Assembly: GCA_017404795.1 (NCBI GenBank)
Contig: JAFRBR010000022.1
Location: 1-38,138, forward strand
DNA: 38,138 bases
Origin: Candidatus Saccharimonadota bacterium
GTDB taxonomy: Bacteria > Patescibacteriota > Saccharimonadia > Saccharimonadales > Saccharimonadaceae
Reading direction: 5' to 3'
Below, in pieces: positions 306 to 38,138 of this stretch. Positions within the stretch are counted from its first letter, which is position 1. Every line of letters begins with the position of its first letter. A model generated the notes under the pieces. That model was given only the letters and a program-made list of their open reading frames with translations. It did no database searches and was not told where the DNA came from. Position numbers and translations under genes: made by a program.

Positions 306-311
306 TATAAT
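306..311 (+). promoter_or_regulatory. extended -10 promoter of the recombinase gene
   Basis: TGATATAAT (extended -10, TATAAT at 306-311), just outside the edge of IR-L. No good -35 is seen at 283-288. The expected start near 317-318 coincides with the first base of the folded leader. Confidence 0.6.
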
Positions 312-317
312 TGAAGA

Positions 318-420
318 GCAGACAATTTATTTTTAGCAAAACCTATTATTTAGGCTCAAAAAGCCGCTTTGGAAACGATTTGGTTTTGCTAAATTGTCTG
401 CACCAGAGCGGCTTTTTGAG
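318..420 (+). promoter_or_regulatory. interleaved inverted repeats (pseudoknot-type leader) before the recombinase
   Basis: Arm A is 318-328 plus 335-343, with six bases looped out, and pairs perfectly with A' at 382-401 (20 bp). Arm B at 355-372 pairs with B' at 403-420 (17 of 18 bp). The order A-B-A'-B' is a pseudoknot topology if both form in one RNA, or mutually exclusive hairpins. B' ends about 5 nt before the ribosome binding site AAGGAGG at 425-431, so folding could control translation. As DNA it could instead be a recombinase binding site. Confidence 0.6.
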
Positions 421-2925: not shown

Positions 2926-2938
2926 GACGCATCTTACA

Positions 2939-3025
2939 TCGACGGGTGGTGCCGCCGGAGGGGACCCCAAAAATGTTTTGCTTTGCAAAAATTTTTGGGG
3001 AGGAGGCGGTGACAGGACCCGTCGA
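2939..3025. repeat. structured repeat family 1, copy 2
   Basis: Differs from 2578-2664 by a single base in the 3' outer arm (ACCCG versus ACTCG), which turns a G-T pair into G-C. It lies between the convergent KGG and metallopeptidase genes, 13 nt after the KGG stop, and may act as a bidirectional terminator or 3'-end stabiliser there. Confidence 0.8.
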
Positions 3026-3034
3026 GAGAAAAAT

Positions 3035-14828: not shown

Positions 14829-15776
14829 TTATATCATAATCAACTCTGTTTTATCAAGGTCATGGTCTTTCAAGCTCACGCTCTGAATCGCTGGGTCCTC
14901 ATAGGTACTATAGTAATAGGTCTGGCTAACCGTCGAATACCCACCGGTGTAAATAGTCTTCTCATACGCCCCATCGCCCATCTGCGCGCCACCATCAATC
15001 ATCGCTACCCCAGTTAGAGTATGGAACAATCGCGACACATTTGAAGCCTCATCAGATTGCACCGGATAGTGGGTATTAAGATACGCCACCCTGATAAACC
15101 GGTCGGTAGAATAGAACCCGCCCGGAATCCCGCGCATCAAAGACCCCGACCCAAACGCTGTCATCTTGGCCTTGCCCCACCTCACCTCTTTTGGCATCTG
15201 TGGGAACAAGTTCATATAGTTGCGCAAATTCTCCTTATGCCAGCCATACCCCGGTTGATTAGTCAAAATATCCACATCGTTCTCAAAAATCTCCATCCCG
15301 CGCTCAGTGTACTCCACCACAATAGACCGCTTCGCATCCCCAATAATCCAATGTAGCTGCGATACCGGATATTGCTCATTAATCGGCTTGGCCACAATCG
15401 CCACATTCTTCAGAGCTTTCTCCGCCTCGTCCACGGTCTTGAAATTCAGCGCCACCCACAGCGGAAATTCATACGCCGCTATATTGGTTTTACCATCTAC
15501 CGCATCCGGCGCATACGACGCATAGCCAGGGAAGTTTAGCCCCGCAATCGCGAGTCCATGCTCATTCGCACAGTCAAAATACAATGGCGTATTCTCCGCA
15601 ATAATCCCCATCCCAATCAGTGCCGGCGAAGCCTCATTTTCACCTAAAAACGCCGTCTTATACTTATACCCCCGTGGTGTAATCACTACTTTCTGCCCAT
15701 AAGGGGTGGACCAGTCCAAATTCCGCCCAAAATACATATTCCCCTTATCATCACTAAACCTTACCCCTGTGCACAT
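14829..15776 (-). CDS. choloylglycine hydrolase / penicillin V acylase family amidase
   Basis: 315 aa Ntn-hydrolase. It begins MCTGVRF, so after Met removal Cys2 is the N-terminal nucleophile. GRNLDWS (about 18-24) supplies the conserved Arg and Asp, LTNQPGYGWH (about 171-180) the conserved Asn, and GSLMRGIPGGFYSTDRF (about 210-226) the conserved Arg region. No signal peptide, so probably cytoplasmic. The family hydrolyses bile-salt, penicillin V or N-acyl-homoserine-lactone amides; sequence alone does not separate these. SD AGGAAG precedes ATG. It is upstream of def-fmt; Def could in principle help expose Cys2. Confidence 0.88.
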   Translation of the reverse strand: MCTGVRFSDDKGNMYFGRNLDWSTPYGQKVVITPRGYKYKTAFLGENEASPALIGMGIIAENTPLYFDCANEHGLAIAGLNFPGYASYAPDAVDGKTNIAAYEFPLWVALNFKTVDEAEKALKNVAIVAKPINEQYPVSQLHWIIGDAKRSIVVEYTERGMEIFENDVDILTNQPGYGWHKENLRNYMNLFPQMPKEVRWGKAKMTAFGSGSLMRGIPGGFYSTDRFIRVAYLNTHYPVQSDEASNVSRLFHTLTGVAMIDGGAQMGDGAYEKTIYTGGYSTVSQTYYYSTYEDPAIQSVSLKDHDLDKTELIMI

Positions 15777-15816: not shown

Positions 15817-17808
15817 TCATAGCAGCCCCGGCGGGTCTAGTGTAATTCGGAATTTTTTGTCTAAATCAGAACACGCTTCTATTAGCGCCTTGCGTGACCG
15901 CGCTCTCACCACAATTTGCCAGGTGTATCCGCGGTTCGTTCGCTCATGAAAAGCCGGCTGGGGCGGGGAAACAATCAGCCTAGCATTCCGCGCTAGACGC
16001 TGCGCCGTCTCCCGTACCTTTTTTAGCACTAGCACCTCTGTTTTTAAAGTGATTTCTAGTTTCATCACAAACTTAAACGGCGGAAATCCTGACTTCTGTC
16101 GCCGTCGTATCAGGTATTCGTAAAATCCTAGATAATCCTCATCCGAGGCAAATTTTAATATCGGGTGCTCTGGCCGGTAGGTCTGCACCAACACCTCTGC
16201 CTCTGTTAAATGCCCTCGCCCCACCCGCCCCATCACCTGGGTCAGCAGCTGAAATACCCGTTCTTCCGCCATGTAATCCGGCAAAGACAACCCCGCATCC
16301 GCCTGCACCACCCCTACCGTAGCCAGCCGTGGCAAATCCAGCCCCTTGGCCAGAGTTTGTGTCCCTATCAGAATATCCACTTCGCCATCTCGCACCTCTG
16401 AATATATCTCGGCCAACCCCTCGCCTTTTTTGTTATCCGCATCAAACCTTCGGATTCGCGCTCTAGGGAACAACTTTCGCGCTTCCGCCTCCAATAGCTT
16501 AGTCCCAAACCCCCTATGTACCATCCCGGGCGTACCACATTTCGGGCAGACCGACGGCACTTTTTCCGCAAATCCACAGGTATGGCACACTAGTTCGTAA
16601 TTATCCGCATGCAAAGTCAGCGGCAAAAAACAATTTGGACACAAAATCTCTTCGCCGCACTTTTCACAGATCGTCAGCGTAGACGACCCCCGTCGGTTAT
16701 GAAAAATCAGCGTCTGTCGCCCCTGTTCTATGTTTTCCTGCATCTTTGCTATCAAATTATCGCAAAAATAGCGGTTCTTCCGAAAATTATCTCTGTTTTT
16801 CAAATCAATTATCCGCACTTCGGGCTTTATTGCCGCAGCCTTGGCCTTCTCTGTTAGTTTCACCACCGCCCCCTGACGATTTGCCAAATAAAAATCTTCC
16901 ACTGTCGGCGTAGCCGACCCCAGCACGCAATCTATTCCCAAATCCTGTGCCATAAAACTCGCCACCCTTAGCGCCGAATATCGCGGTGCGTTCTCTTGGG
17001 TGTAGGTAGACTCGTGTGCCTCATCTATAATGATTAGCCCCAGATTAGACAGGGGCGCAAACAGTGCCGACCGTGGCCCAATTACGATTTTAGGCTCATC
17101 TGCCATCAGGAGGGAATCAAAAATCCGATGTCGTTCCGCCTCTATCTGCCGAGAGTGCATCACTATCACCCGCTCCCCAAAATACCCTCTAAACACTTGC
17201 ACCAATTGCCCGGTGAGAGCAATCTCCGGCACCAGGAGGATTACAGACTTTTGCCCGGAAAGGGTCCTAGCAGCCATTTTAACGTAGATGTTGGTTTTAC
17301 CACTACCAGTAACGCCAAACAGCAGTTTCGTGGCGCTACGAGCCTCTGAGAGGCCTTCTAGCGCCTTTTTCTGGTGGGGGTTAAGTGGGATATTAGGTTT
17401 ATGGTTATCGAGCGACTGAATCTGATTTTTCTGAAGCATCAAATGATTTGAAAAAATAGATTCAGTCGCCTCGTCATCAACACCGAACATTTGTTCGGTT
17501 TTTATCTTCCTCCTCTGTTTTTGTACGCCTCTAGGCAGTATCAACCCTACGGCTTCACCCTCGGCAACCAAATAATATTCGTGCATAAACCTCACCACAT
17601 CCAGCAAATGCTTTGGCAGCGGCTTTGCATACAAAACTTTCAAAATCTCTCGCGTCTTAAACTCCGGTTGCGCAACTTTTTTAATAACTACGCCCGGCAC
17701 CGTCCTTCGCCCCACCGGCACCATCACCATCTGCCCCGGCACCAGGGAAGCATCAAAATTATAGGTCAAAATCCCAATTTTTCCCTCCGGCACTACCTCA
17801 TAATACAT
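15817..17808 (-). CDS. priA: primosomal replication-restart helicase PriA
   Basis: 663 aa, slightly short for PriA. The N-terminal DNA-binding domain is short, then Walker A GVTGSGKTN (about 165-173), DEAHE (about 263-267), GSATPT, the helicase-inserted zinc-binding region with paired Cys (CEKCGEEILCPNC and CHTCG, CPKCG, about 380-425), and motif VI GRVGRG. It loads the replisome at stalled forks. TATAAT ends 6 nt before ATG: leaderless prediction. Confidence 0.95.
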   Translation of the reverse strand: MYYEVVPEGKIGILTYNFDASLVPGQMVMVPVGRRTVPGVVIKKVAQPEFKTREILKVLYAKPLPKHLLDVVRFMHEYYLVAEGEAVGLILPRGVQKQRRKIKTEQMFGVDDEATESIFSNHLMLQKNQIQSLDNHKPNIPLNPHQKKALEGLSEARSATKLLFGVTGSGKTNIYVKMAARTLSGQKSVILLVPEIALTGQLVQVFRGYFGERVIVMHSRQIEAERHRIFDSLLMADEPKIVIGPRSALFAPLSNLGLIIIDEAHESTYTQENAPRYSALRVASFMAQDLGIDCVLGSATPTVEDFYLANRQGAVVKLTEKAKAAAIKPEVRIIDLKNRDNFRKNRYFCDNLIAKMQENIEQGRQTLIFHNRRGSSTLTICEKCGEEILCPNCFLPLTLHADNYELVCHTCGFAEKVPSVCPKCGTPGMVHRGFGTKLLEAEARKLFPRARIRRFDADNKKGEGLAEIYSEVRDGEVDILIGTQTLAKGLDLPRLATVGVVQADAGLSLPDYMAEERVFQLLTQVMGRVGRGHLTEAEVLVQTYRPEHPILKFASDEDYLGFYEYLIRRRQKSGFPPFKFVMKLEITLKTEVLVLKKVRETAQRLARNARLIVSPPQPAFHERTNRGYTWQIVVRARSRKALIEACSDLDKKFRITLDPPGLL

Positions 17809-17934
17809 ATTTACATTATATCACCAATCATCTCTTCAAAATATCTAAAAAACATCTTGACTATTTTAGCAAACAAGCTTATACTTATAATATACAAAGT
17901 CATACATCAACACATTAAACAAACAAGGTTCAAA

Positions 17935-20055
17935 ATGCAACAATTCACAGTAAATGTTGAAAAATCGGTCACTCCTGTTCCAGATGATCCGATTGATCCG
18001 ACCCCAGACGACCCAGTCGTTCCTGATGATTCAGGTGAATCTGGGACCATTAGTGGCGACACCGATGGTACTATTGTCGCAGTTCCCAACACCGGTCAGA
18101 ATTCAGTTGAACCCAGCGAAATCATTTTGATGCCCGAGTTTATCCTCTCTCTTGTTTTTGTTATCATTTTGCTCACTACCCTAGCTTATCGCTATTTTCG
18201 TCGTCTCAAAAGCCCTGATTTTACCTCCCCAAAAACTCCAAAATCCCGCGCCAGCATTTTAGGGCTTAGCGCCCTTTTACTTATTTCTTCATTCACCTCT
18301 TTTACCATCATCAAAAATCTCAGCGACAATCTAAACTCCGCTAGCGCCACCGAGGGTACTATCGATGTGTCCAGCCTAACCGAATCAGACTCCATTTCCG
18401 TTTCTACCTCAGATGTTGCTCTTGATTTTGATCTTAGCGACCAAGATAGCGTCTATCAAGCCGTCAAAAACACCGTCAAAGTCTCTACCAGTACCACTTT
18501 TGGCTACACTCTGGGTGTTTACACCTCAGATAGCGCCCTTACTAATCAAGACGGCGATACTATTGCTTCGGTGGCCGCAGGCTCCACTGCTGCTCTTGAC
18601 GCCAACACTTGGGGTGTCGCCACTAGCCAGCCTCAAAGTGCAGCTTCTACCGTCTGGCAGGGCATCCCCACCTCTGCTAGCTCGGCTCTCATTCTCAAAT
18701 CTACCGGCTATCAAGAAACCGCCGCCGGTGATGCCACCGACCTCTATTTTGGCGCCTACCTCACCCCAGAGCTGCCCGCCGGCATCTATACCAGCTCTAC
18801 TATTAATTATGTCGCCATCGCCAACATTCCCATCGAAACTACTATTATCTTTGACGCCAATGGCGGCACCGGCGAAATGTCCGACCAGACTTTTTATAAT
18901 CATCTCGGCACCATCCTCTCTACCAACACCTTCACCAATACCAACTTAGAATTCGGCAGTTGGAACACCCAACCCGACGGCTCGGGTCAAGCTCTCGCTA
19001 ACCAAGCCGAAGTCACCGACCTCCAGCCAGATGGTGGTGAAATCACCCTTTATGCCCAATGGGTCGATTGTGGTCCCAACAAAATCTGCTACGACGCCAA
19101 CGGTGCCGCCAATATTTCACTTAGCAAACAACTCACCGCCTCTAATTCCGGTGTCACTCTCTGGGCTTCTAACCTTCAGCGCGCTGGTTACGGTTTTATC
19201 GGTTGGAGTCCAGACTCAGCCGCTGCCTCTAACCTCGCCTCCGCCACCATTTATGGCCCCAATCAAACTATCACTACCGACGATCTCTCCATGGGCGGGC
19301 TTAAACTTTACGCCGTTTGGCTAGCCAGTAGTGGCGATCTTCAAAATTGGACCTGCCCCAACGATGTCGATTTTCCCATCGGTAGCGTTACTGCTCTCAC
19401 CGACCAAAGAGACGGCAACACTTACGCCGTTGCCAAACTCGCTGACGATAATTGTTGGCTTATCGAAAATCTCCGCCTCGGCGGTGACACTGAAATGACC
19501 TTAAACTCGGCAGATACCCAGACTCCCGGCCTTCTTCCGGCTTCCTCGTCCAGTTGGGTTATTATTAACTCCGCTGCTGCCAAATATCTCAACGACAGTA
19601 ATCTCCAATCTAGTAACCAGATTATCACTACCAACAATACCAATATTTATTCCTACGGCAATTACTACACTTGGTCCACGGCAGTCAACTACGACGCCAG
19701 CACTTTTGGCACTATTGACAGCTCAATTTGTCCTGCCGGCTGGAGTTTACCAGGGAGCCTAGTTGGTAGTTTCAGCTCCTTAGACGAGAGTTTTGGTGGC
19801 AACGGCAGCAGTCGCTACGATACTTCTGCTGCTTCTACAGTTTGGCGCACCTACCCCAATAATTTTGTCTTTTCTGGCTCCTTCGGCGCTAGTGCACAAG
19901 ATCGAGGCGTCGCAGGTTTTTACTGGTCTCAACCATCTTACGACAGTACTAGCGCCTACCATCTCTCCTTCACTTCTACTGACATCTATTTTAACAACGT
20001 CCAAAAAGGTTTCGGCGGCTCCATTCGTTGCCTTACTGATGTCAAAACTGAATAA
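17935..20055 (+). CDS. two-TM-anchored surface protein with InlB-type repeats and FISUMP domain
   Basis: 706 aa. The N-terminus is an acidic Pro/Asp linker ending in VPNTG (about 57-61), then a membrane segment (about 70-88), RYFRRLK, a basic loop and a second membrane segment (about 108-125). Both ends are therefore predicted outside. The ectodomain has a TasA/WxL-like beta region (about 130-300), InlB B-repeat-like modules (IIFDANGGTGEM; ICYDANGA; LYAVW) and a C-terminal FISUMP-like domain (ALTDQRDGNTYAVAKL, NCWLIENL, SICPAGWSLP, IRCL). ATG 17935 is chosen because the upstream frame is antisense to priA and the promoter TATACT/TATAAT lies at about 17880-17893. Probably an adhesin-like protein; partner unknown. 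Paralog at 36996. Confidence 0.85.
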   Translation: MQQFTVNVEKSVTPVPDDPIDPTPDDPVVPDDSGESGTISGDTDGTIVAVPNTGQNSVEPSEIILMPEFILSLVFVIILLTTLAYRYFRRLKSPDFTSPKTPKSRASILGLSALLLISSFTSFTIIKNLSDNLNSASATEGTIDVSSLTESDSISVSTSDVALDFDLSDQDSVYQAVKNTVKVSTSTTFGYTLGVYTSDSALTNQDGDTIASVAAGSTAALDANTWGVATSQPQSAASTVWQGIPTSASSALILKSTGYQETAAGDATDLYFGAYLTPELPAGIYTSSTINYVAIANIPIETTIIFDANGGTGEMSDQTFYNHLGTILSTNTFTNTNLEFGSWNTQPDGSGQALANQAEVTDLQPDGGEITLYAQWVDCGPNKICYDANGAANISLSKQLTASNSGVTLWASNLQRAGYGFIGWSPDSAAASNLASATIYGPNQTITTDDLSMGGLKLYAVWLASSGDLQNWTCPNDVDFPIGSVTALTDQRDGNTYAVAKLADDNCWLIENLRLGGDTEMTLNSADTQTPGLLPASSSSWVIINSAAAKYLNDSNLQSSNQIITTNNTNIYSYGNYYTWSTAVNYDASTFGTIDSSICPAGWSLPGSLVGSFSSLDESFGGNGSSRYDTSAASTVWRTYPNNFVFSGSFGASAQDRGVAGFYWSQPSYDSTSAYHLSFTSTDIYFNNVQKGFGGSIRCLTDVKTE

Positions 20056-36716: not shown

Positions 36717-36746
36717 TTGCGCACAATAAACCAGTTGTGGTATAAT
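36717..36746 (+). promoter_or_regulatory. promoter of the terminal surface-protein gene
   Basis: TTGCGC (36717-36722), 18-bp spacer, extended -10 TGGTATAAT (TATAAT 36741-36746). Expected start about 36752, immediately before the first stem of the folded leader. Confidence 0.75.
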
Positions 36747-36752
36747 AGAATC

Positions 36753-36934
36753 GCAATCATTAGAAATATTTTACATCAAGGCAGCGATATTTAATATCCG
36801 TCCATCTGTAGAACTTAAAAATGGCATCGTGAGGATGTCAGTGGGTTCTATAGGTGGACTGCCTGTAAGATATCTCTGATGATTGCACCCCTCGCGGTGC
36901 CATTTTTACACCTCTCTCATAGTAGATGGCACCG
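36753..36934 (+). promoter_or_regulatory. pseudoknotted, possibly switching 5' leader RNA
   Basis: Stem C 36753-36764 / 36875-36886. Hairpin GATAT TTA ATATC at 36786-36798. Stem A 36800-36814 / 36845-36859 (15 bp with wobbles). Arm B 36817-36834 lies in the loop of A and pairs with B' at 36890-36907 (18 bp with two wobbles), giving an interleaved fold. B' can instead pair with ATGGCACCG at 36926-36934. All mismatches are G-U in plus-strand RNA. No known riboswitch class is recognised. Confidence 0.6.
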
Positions 36935-36995
36935 TAAGGGGGATGACTATTAACATGAGTAGGCACCAGTCCTCACTCAGAAATAAGGAGCACCA

Positions 36996-38138
36996 ATGGC
37001 CATACATCGCAACCATCAATTCAACTTAATTAAGTTATCGTCTAGTATTCTTAGTTTGTTATTCATCACTACATTAGCTCTACTCACTATGCAGCCAAAT
37101 ACCTCGGCTGTCTCTAGTTCAGTCAACGCTTCAGTCAAAGTAGCCAGTGCCTGTAGTATTACTGGTGGTAGCAACAACTACAGCGACACTATCGCTAACA
37201 GTGAAACCAAGACCTTTGGCCCGAGTAATATCAAAGCCACTTGTAATGACACTGGTGGTTATTCTCTCTATGCTATTGGTTATTCTGGCGATAGTTATTC
37301 AGGTAATAATACCAAGATGATTGGCACCAACTCTAGCATTAGTACTGCCACTTCTGGTACTGATTCCTATTGGGCGATGCAAGTATTACCCGTAGCTGGT
37401 ACTTATGCTCCTACCATTATGAATTCTTTTGATAGTGGTAGCTTTCATGTGATTCCTGATACTTATGCCCAAATCGCCAAATACACTTCTATCACCGATG
37501 CTGGTGACTCTGCCACTGGCTCTAATCTACAAGTTTCTTACAAAGTCAGCATCTCCGCTACTCAGGGTGTAGATACTTATACTGGCAAGGTGAAATACAC
37601 TTTAGTCCATCCCAACAACGCAGCGGCTCCAGCGACCCCCTTGCCTGAGAGTGCCTGTTCAGCTAGCCAGATTTGCTATGCGCCAAATGCCGGTGATATA
37701 GATGGTTCAATGAGCTCCATGGGTACAGTGACTGGCTCTTCTACGGCTGGTAAACAGACCGGTGTAGCTACCAATGGCACCGCAGTCCTCAGAGCACCTA
37801 ACTTCTCCCGCGATGGCTATGGTTTTGCCGGCTGGTCTACCGACTTTGAAGCCACTTCCTCTAGCGTGGTCTTTGGCCCCAACCAAACTATTACCACCGC
37901 TACTGACGGCGCTGGTGATGCCGATGTATCACAGCACGGCCTGATCCTCTACCCAGTCTGGATTGCCAGCACCGGCGACCTCCAAAGCTGGACTGGCTGC
38001 TCTAGTCTCACCACTGCTCCAAAGCCCTCTAGCGGCAATACGCCTACCCTAGCTAGCATGACAGCTCTGACAGACACTAGAGATAATAACACTTACGCCG
38101 TAGCAAGACTATCCGATGGCAACTGTTGGATGGTAGAG
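36996..38138 (+). CDS. secreted surface protein with FISUMP domain, truncated by window end
   Basis: First 381 codons; no stop before the window end. ATG 36996 has AAGGAG 5 nt upstream. Basic N-terminus plus hydrophobic segment (about 10-34, LIKLSSSILSLLFITTLALL) and an Ala-rich cleavage region form a signal peptide. About 38-205 is a Ser/Thr/Gly-rich beta domain with two Cys (ACSITGG; ATCND). About 220-330 is an InlB-like module (QICYAPNAG; GYGFAGW; LYPVW) paralogous to 17935. It ends inside a FISUMP-like domain (MTALTDTRDNNTYAVARL, NCWMVE). Expression is probably controlled by the dyad and the folded leader. Confidence 0.85.
   Translation, partial: MAIHRNHQFNLIKLSSSILSLLFITTLALLTMQPNTSAVSSSVNASVKVASACSITGGSNNYSDTIANSETKTFGPSNIKATCNDTGGYSLYAIGYSGDSYSGNNTKMIGTNSSISTATSGTDSYWAMQVLPVAGTYAPTIMNSFDSGSFHVIPDTYAQIAKYTSITDAGDSATGSNLQVSYKVSISATQGVDTYTGKVKYTLVHPNNAAAPATPLPESACSASQICYAPNAGDIDGSMSSMGTVTGSSTAGKQTGVATNGTAVLRAPNFSRDGYGFAGWSTDFEATSSSVVFGPNQTITTATDGAGDADVSQHGLILYPVWIASTGDLQSWTGCSSLTTAPKPSSGNTPTLASMTALTDTRDNNTYAVARLSDGNCWMVE

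Follow-up and report, generated by a model that had tools for sequence, protein, structure and literature searches.

An apparently undescribed family of pseudoknotted leader RNAs ahead of exchangeable surface-protein genes in Saccharibacteria

The window analysed here, a stretch of 38,138 nt from a Candidatus Saccharimonadota bacterium, ends within a gene for an exported surface protein. Saccharibacteria live on other bacteria, and the long leader of this gene raises the question of whether, and how, a structured RNA might set the expression of such a protein. The leader (Table 1) is apparently one member of a large, hitherto undescribed, multi-copy family. We consider, with slightly better than even confidence, that these RNAs are cis-acting 5' leaders, most likely setting surface-protein gene expression through transcription attenuation.

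Table 1. Coordinates of the leader and associated features in the window
Feature	Position	Strand	Basis
-10 box TATAAT, extended (TGG 36738-36740)	36741..36746	+	sequence; -10-like hexamer in 100/100 copies
P1 (stem C) 5' arm, from predicted +1	36753..36775	+	stem search, covariation
P2 mini-hairpin, internal loop on 5' side	36786..36798	+	MFE fold
P3 (stem A) 5' arm	36800..36817	+	stem search, MFE fold, 100-copy pairing
B, pseudoknot strand inside P3 loop	36816..36834	+	stem search, covariation, 100-copy pairing
P4, local hairpin also using B; GNRA-type loop GUGA (family register)	36822..36840	+	MFE fold
P3 (stem A) 3' arm	36842..36859	+	stem search, MFE fold, 100-copy pairing
P1 (stem C) 3' arm	36864..36886	+	stem search, covariation, 100-copy pairing
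T, terminator-like hairpin GCACC-CCTCGC-GGTGC; overlaps P1 3' end and B'	36885..36900	+	independent scan
B', partner of B or B'', or internal to T	36890..36908	+	stem search, covariation, energetics
U5 tract, invariant	36903..36907	+	T at each position in 98-100/100 copies
B'', competitor for B', within exchangeable cassette	36926..36941	+	stem search; energetics over 92 copies
Ribosome-binding site AAGGAG	36985..36990	+	sequence
Exported surface-protein gene, cut by contig end before C-terminal domain	36996..38138	+	ORF
Family 2 leader of serine recombinase gene (436-2082)	306..420	+	generic scan, homologues
Family 2 -10 box	306..311	+	
Family 2 P1	318..401	+	
Family 2 B	355..372	+	
Family 2 B'	403..420	+	

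The predicted fold of the window leader is far more stable than chance, with a minimum free energy (MFE) of -103.3 kcal/mol against -60.3 +/- 4.5 kcal/mol in shuffled sequences (z = -9.5), none of 200 of which equalled it. Three stems, called C, A and B in an earlier note on this DNA, interleave where that note had put them: stem C, here P1, is 23 nt long (87% complementary), and stem A, here P3, pairs 36800-36814 with 36845-36859 over 15 nt, extending to 18 bp in the MFE fold. As the apical loop of A contains B, and B' comes immediately 3' of C, the B:B' helix forms a pseudoknot. This long pairing, previously put at 18 nt, was recovered as 19 nt at 89%, whereas the rival helix of B', previously put at 9 nt, is actually 16 nt at 88%, joining 36888-36903 to 36926-36941. 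The mismatches had all been described as G-U, which holds for A and B, but not for C, where there are two G-U pairs and one A.C (A36765.C36874, read from the sequence).

The window genome has two further copies of this leader, which are terminal on contigs C2 and C27. A strict B...B' pattern identified 15 copies in 7 genomes of one genus only, with 0 control matches; these copies were aligned with MAFFT. A covariance model, built with P1 only and P3 left out, matched 68 of 174 genomes from this Saccharibacteria genus. The richest of these genomes carry at least 18 copies each, and the assemblies of the genus with named records are mostly of ruminant-gut Saccharibacteria. Model matches were weak in other genera of the family, although loci L176 and L177 in such genera have the promoter, P1, B, B' and U run all present, and a phylum-wide sample gave almost no matches outside the family. 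Because a pattern scan of IMG/VR yielded 0 matches, no viral link is drawn. One additional match in the window genome (C14:20019) had no partner strand and was taken as chance.

Comparison of the copies indicates that the structure is maintained as RNA. Firstly, P1 was 98% paired in the 15-copy alignment, 14 of 18 pairs having changed on both sides, a figure matched by 0 of 500 shuffles, and B:B' was 96% paired. Secondly, the fold is anchored to the transcription start across the family, as had been noted for the window: the -10 hexamer is a perfect TATAAT in 56 of 100 copies and matches at 5/6 positions in the other 44, and sits 5-6 nt ahead of the P1 start in 93, placing P1 at the predicted +1 in approximately 93/100 copies. 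Thirdly, the sequences of P1 (mean 19 bp) and P3 (mean 15 bp) are wholly different between copies, with pairing kept: across 100 copies, P1 contained 1698 Watson-Crick, 192 G-U and 8 A-C pairs, and P3 contained 1245, 184 and 22 respectively. Hence G-U pairs far exceed A-C pairs in both stems, demonstrating selection for pairing on the sense-strand RNA. Fourthly, the B:B' pairing, the conservation of which had been set as a test, persists and shows compensatory changes, among them a G-to-A change matched by C-to-U in four copies; its 12-bp core is complete in 84/100 copies and has at most one mismatch in 97/100. This conservation of letters is partly circular because the pattern and model searches select on them, a caveat that does not extend to the pairing of P3, to B'' or to the compensatory changes in B:B'.

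The competing alternative helix is likewise conserved. Over 92 copies, B':B'' had a mean energy of -25.1 kcal/mol, compared with -11.6 kcal/mol when shuffled, and 86% of copies beat all 20 of their shuffles; the mean for B:B' is close by, at -26.3 kcal/mol. A GNRA loop occurs at the P4 site in 85/100 copies, and the CACC..GGTGCC motif of T in 99/100, with the A of CACC retained in 13 copies that have lost its P1 partner. Each position of U5 is kept though the B bases opposite U4-U5 vary. No conserved unpaired core that might hint at a ligand pocket was found among the family copies. A separate idea, that P3 folds back on P1, would predict correlated lengths, and was unsupported (r = 0.11). The conservation of B/B' and B'' over 100 related leaders supports the original suggestions of an RNA switch ahead of an adhesin-like gene, and of a new riboregulator class; that of a thermosensor finds no support, as the helices are 15-22 bp long and nothing points to temperature. 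Neither predicted state places a strong helix over the ribosome site.

In the attenuation mechanism we favour, P1 would fold from the first transcribed nucleotide, P3 would present B in its loop, partly held by hairpin P4, and B' would emerge beside the base of P1. Three mutually exclusive fates would then be available to B': closing hairpin T right before U5, causing transcription to stop; pairing with B, the loop of which matches that of T and could engage before T closes, allowing read-through; or, following read-through, pairing with B'', which belongs to the 5' region of the gene itself. The signal would presumably act on P4 and B. A G+C-rich hairpin followed by a U run does lie between the promoter and the gene, and the helices are mutually exclusive, with B:B' and B':B'' each sharing B' with T; the common topology of the three sequence families described below also counts in favour. 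Against this, T is modest (mean -7.2 kcal/mol) and followed by U5 only, and the leaders of family 2 have neither T nor B''.

The absence of T from family 2 is more readily accommodated by the opposite polarity, in which B:B' would itself be a pseudoknotted terminator ending at U5, such that blocking B causes read-through. B:B' adjoins the U5 tract in all three families, and in family 1, that of the window surface-protein leader, an A-rich run in B faces it. However, families 1 and 3 would on this view have no need of their conserved T hairpin, and B' would have to exit the polymerase before reaching a distant loop, as any strand must in a transcription complex. We favour T as the probable terminator and B:B' as the antiterminator because the T loop exits the polymerase before the 3' arm of T, and complements the P4 loop; we regard the reversed polarity as rather unlikely, while being the strongest of the rivals. 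A switch at the level of translation is less probable again: B', or the segment beyond it, would mask the ribosome site when B holds B', and B'' would free it. Predicted accessibility of this site is indeed 0.58 where B':B'' is possible, versus 0.50 (p = 3e-9), and drops to 0.44 on scrambling the spacer, but the effect is small, with many copies not exhibiting it, and B'' mostly ends well upstream of the ribosome site. Slightly more improbable still is that the helix of approximately 19 bp at the extreme 5' end, suggested by the position and length of P1, shields the mRNA from a 5' exonuclease with the remainder as scaffold, which would leave the conserved B/B', the near-isoenergetic B'' and the invariant U5 unexplained. 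Finally, it is very improbable that the leader is an attC-like folded DNA strand for cassette exchange, transcribed incidentally, for although cassette boundaries fall at B', the 24:1 ratio of sense-strand G-U to A-C in P1 and the fixed promoter on every copy point to RNA.

Those cassette boundaries reflect the arrangement behind the leader. At orthologous loci (the pairs L066/L084, L118/L129, L067/L132, L081/L126 and L073/L135), promoter and leader are near-identical, and everything past B'-U5 is different. The L296/L297 pair shares 93-100% identity over flank and leader; its genes, of 546 and 540 codons, show next to no similarity at the nucleotide level, and from the stop codon onwards the two loci again agree at 90%. 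Conversely, the leaders on C2 and C27 of the window genome differ, and the 123 bases that follow them are the same. Hence the leader, including B', is fixed, and B'' moves with the ribosome site and gene as an exchangeable coding cassette; by these sequence comparisons, surface-protein genes appear to be swapped between species while the leader RNA stays put. The requirement that every leader fit every cassette, added to the triple constraint on B', may account for the frozen state of B, B' and B'' against the drift of P1 and P3. The same freeze of B/B' is seen in family 3, despite its diverse downstream genes, which means that a trans-acting factor, or the triple constraint, has to be weighed as well.

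The genes headed by the leader encode exported proteins of 500-600 aa, resembling FISUMP and C-type lectin domains; 9 of 10 proteins tested matched Fib_succ_major, mostly under the curated cut-off. The truncated window gene has a weak Flg_new match, and N-terminal and central motifs in common with the FISUMP proteins. The final codons of the leader-headed genes vary in the manner of the variable regions of diversity-generating retroelements (DGRs). In genome G181, an AAC-rich template repeat beside a reverse transcriptase, the ORF of which contains IGNLTSQ, matches some of the leader-headed genes, and differs from that of L071 at 25/53 A positions and 15/111 non-A positions; the combination of a reverse transcriptase with a template repeat differing mainly at adenines, which defines a DGR target, was found for some G181 genes only. 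Reverse transcriptases were present in 8/8 genomes tested, and the window genome has four such loci with AAC-rich repeats (G000:C4, C12, C19 and C23; L328-L331), apparently representing several DGRs. Across the genus, 51/68 genomes with the leader RNA had a reverse transcriptase, compared with 47/106 without it (Fisher p = 8e-5, ignoring phylogeny and completeness). As in the DGRs of CPR bacteria (PMC8144416), the leader-headed proteins have a FISUMP/lectin-like domain at the C-terminus, and it is this domain that the AAC-rich template repeat in G181 matches. A structured leader is not mentioned in the DGR descriptions found in the literature, and, unlike DGRs, the leader topology also precedes genes of families 2 and 3 that are not DGR-like. 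A further FISUMP protein in the window, of 854 aa with a Listeria-Bacteroides repeat (17491-20055), is not preceded by a family 1 leader.

These further families emerged from a generic scan for a promoter, P1 at +1, B in the P1 loop and B' after P1, which gave 12 matches, overlapping and weak ones included, in 413 kb of the window genome, against 1.7 in order-1 Markov controls, used because reversed sequence preserves inverted repeats. Family 2 heads the serine recombinase gene at the start of the window, which had been noted as sharing the start-anchored fold, and indeed has the same topology; B:B' covaries among the recombinase leaders (the window, L343, L344, L345 and L347). Around this gene lies a 122-nt inverted repeat (182-303 and 1835-1956; 89%), each arm of which holds its own 19-nt hairpin. 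The third family, in 37/170 genus genomes (sites include L353:4028-4200 on G000:C19, G000:C21:1837 and C14:11116), has a strong T hairpin (GCGACUA-AGUAAA-UAGUCGC-AUUUUU), and a B''-like segment in many copies; its P1 contains 228 Watson-Crick, 41 G-U and 0 A-C pairs. Its downstream genes are mostly unnamed, with one matching T4SS_pilin. B and B' are unrelated in sequence among the three families. Tentatively, and with somewhat less than even confidence, these may constitute a new superfamily of pseudoknot attenuators anchored at the start site, of which a single genus has at least three B/B' types. Such attenuators would give ultrasmall episymbionts one switch in common for adhesins that are interchangeable and diversified by retroelements, as well as for genes of recombinases and type IV secretion pilins, and each type might respond to a trans-acting signal of its own.

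Neither gathering nor permissive thresholds gave an Rfam match to the window leader, the best permissive one being a chance match to a snoRNA (E = 5.1), and our search of open-access papers turned up no account of a leader like this. The T-box has the consensus UGGNACCGCG, which B (UGGCACCG) resembles, and its partner is similarly a terminator-like 3' arm. Nevertheless, a T-box was rejected: in 17/100 copies C takes the place of the U in UGG, contrary to the UGGN bulge that pairs with tRNA NCCA, and the Rfam searches gave neither a T-box match nor a recognisable stem I. In LicT/BglG-type regulation, a conserved hairpin, the ribonucleic antiterminator, overlaps a terminator across a multi-gene regulon; the Saccharibacteria leader likewise has a conserved hairpin overlapping a terminator-like element ahead of many genes, but its competing strand is a pseudoknot loop, and it has no known binding protein. 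Competition between a pseudoknot and an intrinsic terminator further downstream is a feature of the fluoride riboswitch and of other transcriptional riboswitches of the pseudoknot/terminator kind (PMC11077080), and here too one strand of a 5' leader is contested by a pseudoknot and a terminator-like hairpin. Unlike these riboswitches, the leader has no Rfam match or conserved unpaired core, its P1 and P3 are long, variable and start at +1, and B' has a third partner in the downstream cassette.

If this is correct, Saccharibacteria would have a novel means of managing a hypervariable surface repertoire: one RNA switch common to as many as 18 or more adhesin genes in a genome, behind which coding cassettes can be swapped and retroelements drive variation. 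The leader also makes gene regulation in Saccharibacteria testable with short RNAs in vitro. Elsewhere in the window, a 94-nt direct repeat (2575-2668 and 2936-3029) is 99% identical between copies 361 nt apart, the protein encoded at 22555-23526 matches a Kiwa KwaB-like Pfam family (E = 9e-9), and that at 14829-15776 belongs to the choloylglycine hydrolase family (E = 3e-94), in what is a gut Saccharibacterium.
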